Assembly: GCA_024742455.1 (NCBI GenBank) | Contig: JANSYL010000001.1 | Location: forward strand, 62,001 to 126,000 | Direction: 5' to 3' | DNA from: Paracoccaceae bacterium | GTDB lineage: Bacteria; Pseudomonadota; Alphaproteobacteria; Rhodobacterales; Rhodobacteraceae | DNA: 64,000 bases | Part shown: one piece after another, positions 26,293 through 29,451 of the stretch | How positions within the stretch are numbered: the stretch's first letter is position 1 | Layout: every line of letters begins with the position of its first letter | The notes under the pieces: model-generated | The model's database searches: none | The model's input: the letters and a program-made list of their open reading frames with translations, nothing else | Told to the model about the DNA's origin: nothing | Made by a program: the position numbers and the translations under genes

Positions 26293-27114
26293 TCAGCGCG
26301 CTTTCTCAAAGCCTGTCCGCACGGCCTCCTCGGCCCTTTGGGCGAGGGTTTTTCGGTCGGCCATCTCCGCCACCCGCAGGGGCGCGTGAAAGATCACCCG
26401 CGCGGTCCCGTGACGCGGCGCGGCCAGCATGCGCAACAGATTGGCGCCGAAATCCATGTCGCCCCACCAGCCATAGAACGCCCCGGGCGCGCCCGGCGGC
26501 GGCGTGTAGACGAGGCTGACCGGTTGGATCGACACGTCCGGCAGACCCCCGGCAAAGAAGGCGGCAAACAGCGTCGTGCGGAACGGCAGAACGCGGCACC
26601 CATCGGTCGACGTGCCCTCGGGAAAGAACAAGAGCCGATGCCCCGCCGCCAGGCGATCCCTCAGCGCCGCCGCCTGTTCCGCCGCGCGCGCGCGGTCACG
26701 GGCGATGAACAGCGTGCCGACCCCGCGTGCCAGCCAGCCGATACCGGGCCAGCCCCGCACCTCGGATTTCGCCACGAAATAGAGACGGGTGCAGGCATTC
26801 AGAACGAAAATGTCGAGCCAGCTGACATGGTTGGACACGAAGGCCCCGGGGCTGCGGTCGATCCGGCCCTCGCGCATCAGGCGCAGCCCCAGAACCGCGC
26901 AGGTCAGGCGACAGACGATCTGGGTGATCCAGGGCGTGACCGGGCGGTGATGGCCGGAAAGCACCCGCTCGGGCAGCCGCAGCAGCAACAGCAGCGGAAA
27001 CCCGACCAGAAGCAGCGACAGGATCACCCCCCCGCGCAACCCGATGCGCACCCGGTCGGCCGCCCCGAGCGGGCGGGGCGGCAAGGGCTCCGCCCCCCGC
27101 CAGGTGACGCTCAT
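26293..27114 (-). CDS. olsA: Lyso-ornithine lipid / 1-acyl-glycerol-3-phosphate O-acyltransferase
   Basis: The 273-residue PlsC-family acyltransferase carries the HX4D motif in NHVSWLDIF, FFPEGTSTDG (the EGT motif) and a preceding membrane segment (VILSLLLVGFPLLLLLRL). It would add the second acyl chain to lyso-ornithine lipid, or act as an ordinary PlsC. The ols assignment comes from its position directly downstream of olsB, the N-acyltransferase of ornithine-lipid synthesis. Its ATG is the last in a ladder of 14-bp repeats (27109-27172) that begin at the olsB stop codon, suggesting unusual translational coupling. Confidence 0.85.
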   Translation of the reverse strand: MSVTWRGAEPLPPRPLGAADRVRIGLRGGVILSLLLVGFPLLLLLRLPERVLSGHHRPVTPWITQIVCRLTCAVLGLRLMREGRIDRSPGAFVSNHVSWLDIFVLNACTRLYFVAKSEVRGWPGIGWLARGVGTLFIARDRARAAEQAAALRDRLAAGHRLLFFPEGTSTDGCRVLPFRTTLFAAFFAGGLPDVSIQPVSLVYTPPPGAPGAFYGWWGDMDFGANLLRMLAAPRHGTARVIFHAPLRVAEMADRKTLAQRAEEAVRTGFEKAR

Positions 27115-27172
27115 GACCCGAAGCTCATGATCCGACGCTCATGATCCGACGCTCATGACCGGGCGCTCATGC
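27109..27172 (-). repeat. 14-bp tandem repeat forming overlapping mini-ORFs between olsB and olsA
   Basis: About 4.5 units of a 14-mer (GCTCATGATCCGAC on the plus strand) fill the olsB-olsA junction. On the minus strand each unit contains TCATGA, so the stop of one reading frame overlaps the start of the next by ATGA. Reading from the olsB stop (27167-27169), four five-codon frames (MSARS, MSVGS, MSVGS, MSFGS) follow one another, each shifted -1. The fifth ATG is the olsA start at 27114. Confidence 0.85.
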
Positions 27173-27940
27173 CGGTGTGCCCCGCGTATAGATCGCCCGG
27201 TGCTTCGGCGACATCCGCGCCACGTCGATCACCAGACAGACATCGATACAGTTGAAGGGCCGGTCGATGAACGCCCCCTGCCCCACGAACCCCCCGAGCC
27301 TCAGATAGGCCTTGATCAGCGCCGGGATCGCCCGGATCGCCGCGGGCCGGTCCAGCCTGTCCTCGGCGATCAGGTCCATCGCCTGCGCGCCCGGCGGACG
27401 GGCCACGGGGCGGATATCGGCAGGCGCGAGGTGACGATGATGCAACAGCGACAAGGGCCCGGCCAGCGCCTGCGGGTCGGTGCCGTGGAAACTGGCCACG
27501 CCGAACAGGATGTCGATATCATGGTCGGCCACGTAGCGCGCCAGGCCGTTCCACAAATGCATCATTGCCGTGCCGCCGCGGTAATCGCGATGCAGGCAGG
27601 ACCGCCCAAGCTCCAGAAGCCGCCGGCCGGTCGCGCGCAGCGGGGCAAGGTCGTATTCGTCCTCGGAATAGAACTGCCCGGCCGTCTCGGCCTGGTCGGC
27701 GCGCATCACGCGGTAGACGCCGACCACGCGGTCGCCCGCGTCGCGCCGGGCATCGCTGAGGATGAGATGTTCGAAATACGGGTCGAACCGGTCGCGTTCC
27801 AGCCGGTTTTCGTGATCGACGAGGTCCCCGCCTGCGCCCAGTTCCTCGACGAAGACCGCGTAGCGCAGGCGCTGGGCCGCGATCCGTTCGGCCTCGGTCG
27901 TTGCGAGCGACACGGTGAAATGCGGCTCGGCGAGATCCAT
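27167..27940 (-). CDS. olsB: L-ornithine N-alpha-acyltransferase
   Basis: The 257-residue GNAT-like protein matches OlsB, which transfers a 3-hydroxyacyl group to ornithine in the first step of ornithine-lipid synthesis. Features are the N-terminal FTVSLATTEAERIAAQRLRYAVFVEELGAGGDLVDHE, the central VVGVYRVMR, the LELGRSCLHRDYRGG loop and the C-terminal GAFIDRPFNCIDVCLVIDV. The start at 27940 begins MDLAEPHFTVSL; a longer frame adds an Arg/Pro-rich leader. A CtrA-type TTAA-N7-TTAAC box lies about 100 bp upstream. Ornithine lipids are phosphorus-free and often made under phosphate limitation. Confidence 0.9.
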   Translation of the reverse strand: MDLAEPHFTVSLATTEAERIAAQRLRYAVFVEELGAGGDLVDHENRLERDRFDPYFEHLILSDARRDAGDRVVGVYRVMRADQAETAGQFYSEDEYDLAPLRATGRRLLELGRSCLHRDYRGGTAMMHLWNGLARYVADHDIDILFGVASFHGTDPQALAGPLSLLHHRHLAPADIRPVARPPGAQAMDLIAEDRLDRPAAIRAIPALIKAYLRLGGFVGQGAFIDRPFNCIDVCLVIDVARMSPKHRAIYTRGTPA

Positions 27941-28037
27941 GGGGGCGGGCGTCCTTGATGCTGGGCCGGGTCTGGGGCGCGGTCTAGCAGGGCGGCGCGC
28001 GGTTGCAAAGCAAGCTGGCCACATGCGGGGTGCCGGC

Positions 28038-28929: not shown

Positions 28930-29451
28930 TCAGCCCACCGGCACCAGGCCCGCGCGGAAGCGGCGCATGTTGTCCTGGTAATGGGTGGCCGAGGCGATCA
29001 GCCCGGCGCGCGCGGTTTCATCAAGGTCCCGCACCACCTTGCCGGGCATCCCCATGACCAGGCTGCCCGCCGGAATGTCCTTGCCCTCCCCGATCAGCGC
29101 GCCCGCCCCGATCAGGCAGCCCGGCCCGATCACCGCACCGTTCAGAATCGTGGCGCCCATGCCGATCAAGCTGCCATCGCCGATGGTGCAGCCATGCAGC
29201 ATCGCCTTGTGGCCGATGGTGCAATTTTCCCCGATCACCAGCGGATAGCCGATATCGGTGTGAAAGACGCAGTTTTCCTGCACGTTCGAGCCGCGCCCCA
29301 CCCGGACCTCTTCATTGTCGCCGCGCAGCGTGGCGCCGAACCAGACGCTGGCCCCCTCCTCGATCACCACGCGCCCGATCAGGTTGGCATCGGGGGCGAT
29401 CCAGCTGTCTTCGGCGATGTCGGGGGCGATCCCGTCAAGGGCGTAGATCAT
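28930..29451 (-). CDS. Gamma carbonic anhydrase family protein
   Basis: The 173-residue left-handed beta-helix protein is built of hexapeptide repeats (for example [18 protein letters not shown]). The zinc-ligand histidines are visible in VFHTDIG and GHKAMLHGC. The protein resembles YrdA/PaaY/gamma-CA proteins, which bind zinc and may hydrate CO2, although many members have no detected activity. The C-terminal [11 protein letters not shown] segment is typical. It overlaps the gmk stop codon by 4 nt (ATGA), forming the end of a yicC-gmk-gamma-CA operon. Confidence 0.92.

Follow-up and report, generated by a model that had tools for sequence, protein, structure and literature searches.

The junction of olsB and olsA in a genome of the Paracoccaceae (2.88 Mb, 21 contigs) raises the question of how a ladder of overlapping stop and start codons came to lie between two genes, and whether ribosomes use it to pass from one gene to the other. 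The window, that is, the whole stretch of 64,000 nucleotides that was analysed, carries on its minus strand olsB, then four units of 14 bp and then olsA (Table 1). From the end of olsB through the units to the beginning of olsA, the minus strand reads ...ACACCGGC ATGAGCGCCCGGTC ATGAGCGTCGGATC ATGAGCGTCGGATC ATGAGCTTCGGGTC ATGAGCGTCACCTGG... The ATGs begin at 27170, 27156, 27142, 27128 and 27114, each within an ATGA, and the first of these (27170-27167) overlaps the end of olsB, whose TGA lies at 27169-27167. Since the period of 14 is 2 modulo 3, each copy puts an in-frame stop on the next start, and every consecutive pair of frames, from olsB through the mini-frames to olsA, has a common ATGA in which the stop overlies the next start. 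Each mini-frame consists of 15 nt and a stop, and the gap between olsB and olsA is 52 nt.

A preliminary description of this DNA had claimed a ladder of four overlapping five-codon frames that ends at the olsA ATG, and direct reading bears this out; the -1 shift that it assigned to each mini-frame is confirmed by the 14-nt step between successive ATGAs. It had also placed TCATGA in each repeat, which is true for four of the five ATGA sites, whereas the first site reads GCATGA. The palindromic nature of TCATGA explains why a series of ATGAs is found on the plus strand as well. An antisense frame that starts in the array (27155-27958) failed the codon-position test. The gene names hold by family matches: OlsB reached 417 bits (cut-off 350) on window 27167-27937, and OlsA 370.5 bits (cut-off 300). 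The mechanical ORF of olsB is longer and starts at 28024.

Table 1. Features of the olsB-olsA junction, with positions in the window, and other arrays that lie between two genes
Feature	Position	Strand	Description and basis
olsB (ornithine N-alpha-acyltransferase)	27167..27940	-	ATG at 27940, 257 codons + TGA; NCBIfam NF052554
14-bp unit array x4 (56 bp)	27115..27170	-	ATGA at all unit boundaries; sequence, Tandem Repeats Finder
Mini-frame 1, MSARS stop	27153..27170	-	ATG overlaps olsB TGA; sequence
Mini-frame 2, MSVGS stop	27139..27156	-	sequence
Mini-frame 3, MSVGS stop	27125..27142	-	sequence
Mini-frame 4, MSFGS stop	27111..27128	-	TGA overlaps olsA ATG; sequence
olsA (lyso-ornithine lipid O-acyltransferase)	26293..27114	-	273 codons; NCBIfam NF052552
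L137			His_Phos_1 (histidine-phosphatase family) gene, 5 units of 14 bp, then 369-aa gene
L271			ABC ATPase, 6 units of 11 bp, permease
L309			PotA-like, 3 units of 13 bp, PotB-like

A chance spacing of ATGAs was ruled out by counts in the window and by two kinds of randomized sequence. Three ATGAs at a spacing of 14 occur five times in the window, all within the array (two strands), against 0.01 expected, and none of 100 shuffles held five or more such triplets. Likewise, in 100 Markov-1 simulations of 64 kb (one strand), ATGAs never recurred four or more times at equal spacing (periods of 5-30). Once a repeat contains an ATGA, the frame property itself is a matter of one-in-three arithmetic, true for any period of 2 modulo 3. 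The array is the best of 17 Tandem Repeats Finder rows in the window (period 14, 4.7 copies, score 97). The units differ from each other at unit positions 7, 8, 10 and 12, which indicates that the array is not brand new and makes an assembly error unlikely. Elsewhere in the window, an 18-bp unit is present three times at 29083-29137, inside a frame (28930-29451) whose product presumably resembles a hexapeptide-repeat protein; this repeat is probably ordinary.

A dispersed repeat was also ruled out for this genome, since a 20-base pattern (the unit and the start of the next) had no match outside the array at up to three mismatches. The genome matched a looser pattern (three ATGAs spaced by 14) six times, five times in the array and once elsewhere. 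These results bear on the proposal that the repeated TCATGA palindromes act as a binding array for a protein or as a structural element in the RNA, which we regard as extremely unlikely. The palindromes at four of the five sites and a predicted pairing between units are what such an element could offer, but the unit is absent from the rest of the genome, and the 14-bp spacing would be unlike one helical turn. Moreover, folding of the array was no better than that of shuffled sequences (z = 0.25, with 121 of 200 shuffles as stable), which rules out an unusual RNA structure.

To trace the origin of the ladder, we compared it with 105 other distinct olsB-olsA junctions, taken as the best matches from whole-genome and contig searches after removal of four of 110 loci as duplicates. 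A start offset of -1, i.e. a plain 4-nt overlap, was found in 74 of them (53 ATGA, 20 GTGA and 1 TTGA). The other 31 have different short spacings or mechanically uncertain starts, some starts among them being mechanically assigned and a few placed at implausibly far positions. A scan around the olsB stop of all 106 junctions, for at least three DTGAs at equal spacing, showed an array at the junction in the window alone; three DTGAs at a spacing of 6 in L082 lie well inside olsA and were not counted as a junction array. A midpoint-rooted tree was built from 100 OlsB and OlsA rows, six of the 106 being omitted because a start was missing or a frame was short. In it, the window shares a clade (SH-aLRT 99) with rows from Nioella, Rhodophyticola, Roseobacter HKCCD6576-2 and Roseicyclus; its branch has a length of 0.53, compared with a median end branch of 0.36. 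All four tree neighbours of the window have the plain overlap, so the ladder was most simply gained on the window's own branch.

Thus, the ladder is most likely a tandem expansion on the window's own lineage, as judged from these sequence comparisons. The idea that an original ATGA junction had expanded, already put forward in the preliminary description, gains support from the 74 plain overlaps and the four tree neighbours. In the comparison of repeat number across related genomes that it called for, no comparable array was present in the 105 other junctions, the window genome being the only one of its genus among the genomes available. The unit seems to have been generated locally. Nine bases at the olsA start, ATGAGCGTC, are also the beginning of units 2 and 3, and CCGGC, the five bases before the first ATGA, is similar to the later spacers (CGGTC, GGATC and GGGTC). 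The 14-bp period would follow if the 14 bases CCGGC-ATGAGCGTC had been duplicated first.

At least four changes distinguish the units and none falls in the 4 ATGA positions of the 14; by simple proportion this has a probability of about 0.26, and thus gives no sign of selection on the ATGA chain. The array is more likely to be tolerated than selected, and neither a tuning of OlsA, as had been suggested, nor selection for the frame step is supported. On the other hand, the claim that the chain of stops and starts is robust to changes in unit number holds by arithmetic, as each unit has both a stop and a start.

How would ribosomes cross such a junction? On balance, we lean towards the view that the ladder is a lineage-specific expansion of an ancestral NTGA overlap through which ribosomes that have translated olsB reach olsA by serial reinitiation. 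The process would have started, probably, with a 14-bp duplication across the olsB-olsA junction that expanded the ancestral 4-nt overlap. Five short termination-reinitiation steps would then lead from olsB to olsA in place of one, with the mini-frames being translated on the way. In this way the two genes would stay coupled despite a 52-nt gap, which by itself would be expected to weaken the coupling. Some ribosomes would probably be lost per step and, if they are lost at every step, OlsA would be low relative to OlsB.

Predicted pairing with the anti-Shine-Dalgarno sequence, calculated with what we take to be the rRNA tail, is weak at olsA (-3.7 kcal/mol). Of 74 relatives, whose median is -6.1, 64 have stronger pairing, and this speaks against olsA being strongly initiated on its own. 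Among the mini-frames, the first start reaches -5.0, and starts 2-4 have values of -2.9 to -3.3, weaker than olsA, so that initiation there would not be favoured either. Accessibility of the olsA start is also predicted to be poor (mean unpaired 0.20), which would be an obstacle to relay and direct initiation alike. Of the two, serial reinitiation with a leak at each step appears the likeliest, and we favour it over strong direct initiation.

Published work on coupled genes points in both directions. With E. coli reporters, a stop-to-start distance of 38 nt is reported to cut reinitiation by 80-90% or fully, and in native E. coli pairs coupling went down by 40-80% at 14 nt and was almost abolished at 38 nt; taken together, native E. 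coli and Haloferax pairs are described as losing most coupling at 14-38 nt (PMC10666635). According to the same report, coupling and reinitiation need no more of the upstream gene than its final 15 nt when these are joined to a longer translated reporter (PMC10666635); being a longer-reporter fusion, this is not proof that a freshly started five-codon frame passes ribosomes on. Other work, as cited in the coupling papers, describes coupling across gaps of 50-73 nt, or coupling that stays undiminished between -4 and +25 nt, and the ladder may therefore not be needed. This longer-gap coupling fits a second explanation, possible although distinctly less probable than serial reinitiation, in which the array is neutral slippage debris, the mini-frames are unused, and OlsA is made by direct initiation at its own ATG or by 70S scanning over the 52-nt gap. 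It would also agree with the presence of the array in one lineage only among the olsB-olsA junctions compared, with the ATGAs being without sign of constraint, and with the family arrays described below that have no upstream gene ending there (L125, L127, L139, L293, L299 and L307). However, the weak pairing at olsA and the loss of most coupling in the native E. coli and Haloferax pairs count against it.

To see whether such arrays occur elsewhere, we searched genomes of the family for four RTGAs separated by a constant distance, with periods of 11, 13 and 14, and judged the loci by the codon-position test and family searches after removal of identical arrays. Period 14 was found in 26 of 394 genomes (30 loci kept and examined; a few listed matches had no locus) and period 13 in 12 of 388 (23 loci kept and examined). 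Period 11 was found in 41 of 388 genomes, with one locus kept from each of 30 genomes and 11 genomes omitted; 28 of these loci went through the codon-position test, and L272 and L279 fell to the centre filter and serve for display only. A backward-pattern control at period 14 also matched in some genomes (among them G336 with 61 matches, G302 with 10, and G002 and G311 with four each), and raw genome counts are therefore no evidence by themselves. Many matches of the scan were heptamer arrays, dispersed motifs or repeats without genes on both sides.

In this partial survey, four arrays lie exactly between two genes, namely that of the window, L137, L271 and L309. L137 has a TTGA and five RTGAs 14 bp apart; the 369-aa protein downstream had no Pfam or NCBIfam match, its gene has coding-type codon positions, and homologues exist. 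The permease of L271 may really start at a second in-frame ATG, which lies six codons further in and is preceded by AAGGA. The period of L309 is 1 modulo 3: mini-frames 1 and 2 each run to a stop two units further along, and the stop of the third falls within the downstream gene. Hence, the period is 2 modulo 3 in three of the four arrays, and L309 is not in one-step register; four cases and three surveyed periods say nothing firm on selection for register. The array was absent from all fetched relatives that have both genes, 12 of 12 for L137 and 9 of 9 for L271, and these mostly show an overlap or short spacing, with a wider gap in L324 and L329; two further relatives of L137 had no upstream match. 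Another genome of the genus of L137 has the plain ATGA overlap.

Three further candidates were rejected as two-gene arrays: L144, whose downstream frame looks artefactual (an ABC domain only at residues 338-477), L127, whose upstream frame runs antisense to a frame for a sulfate permease, and L142, where both frames are antisense to dehydrogenase genes. Six arrays lie at or near the start of single genes (L125, L127, L139, L293, L299 and L307). L299 has eight perfect 13-bp units before a PEP-mutase-like gene, and for both L299 and L307 the true start of the gene may be further in.

The scans also brought up repeats of other kinds. Four-copy direct repeats of TATGA with 11-bp spacing occur in L267, L273, L294 and L296 (genomes G236, G185, G380 and G018) and also in G110 and G223. 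They are numerous within a genome (26 matches in G380, 24 in G185 and 15 in G236), and their form points to a dispersed element for binding or structure. Five family genomes (L119, L130, L131, L132 and L141) have tandem arrays of heptamers that are perfect or nearly so, with the units GTGACTT, RTGAGCC, GTGAGCG, GTGACCA and ATGAGCG. In viral contigs, four ATGAs at period 14 were found in at least 119 stretches, and 159 arrays lie in these 119 loci; among the matches listed, frames of at least 60 aa on both sides were present in two of the 159 (L174 and L220), both 7-bp repeats.

In the family as surveyed, arrays of starts and stops between two genes are a rare, recurrent and sporadic kind, of which the ladder is one case. 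It is unlikely that such ladders, arising by NTGA duplication, constitute a recurrent and independently evolving junction in which the unit number sets the protein ratio multiplicatively with the frame unbroken. We consider it very unlikely that the array is a selected, evolvable dial, each unit stepping OlsA against OlsB by a fixed factor while coupling is never broken. The geometry allows any unit number, several junction arrays are independent, and in the roseobacter Ruegeria pomeroyi the role of OlsA extends to more than one lipid, olsA being reported as necessary there for both ornithine and glutamine lipids and for growth when phosphate is low (PMC6298996). However, the period and substitution data support neither a register preference nor constraint.

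The ladder has partial counterparts in known systems. NTGA (-4 nt) coupled gene pairs, the usual state of olsB-olsA in relatives, have the same stop/start overlap and gene order; they have one overlap, whereas the ladder strings five together, and its two genes are separated by four five-codon frames. MIRUs (mycobacterial interspersed repetitive units) are longer than the 14-bp unit and are found in tandem copies between senX3 and regX3. Like the window unit, a MIRU joins a short ORF to a neighbouring gene by a 4-nt overlap, the internal ORF of the repeat being reported to couple to the gene in this way (PMC12548453). However, MIRUs are described as mobile short repeats in many mycobacteria (PMC12548453), and the 14-bp unit is confined to one place, with no second site in the whole genome at up to three mismatches. 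SSR/VNTR phase-variation loci also have short tandem units at a translation start, but these act by frame switching. The window array is not of that type: with a period of 2 modulo 3 and both a stop and a start in each unit, no change of unit number can put olsA out of frame. The TAACTGA heptamers of the Beggiatoaceae are, like the window units, direct repeats; they are intergenic and have a proposed post-transcriptional role, but they are abundant, dispersed and from another lineage, and their abstract-level description mentions no NTGA chain (PMC4679880).

The earlier statement that no such relay had been described was thus too strong, given the 4-nt coupling of MIRUs (PMC12548453) and the short-period arrays at other junctions of the family. 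Our literature search, which covered few subscription journals, did not find serial short-period start/stop overlaps in the best-matching titles and abstract openings.

The ladder is best seen as a natural construct for measuring reinitiation and not as a demonstrated regulator. Its near-identical series of stops and starts could allow the yield of termination-reinitiation to be measured per step in a native operon, and could decide between local reinitiation and scanning. For the family, the analogues with periods of 11, 13 and 14 raise the comparative question of whether arrays at junctions favour periods at which stops and starts stay in register.
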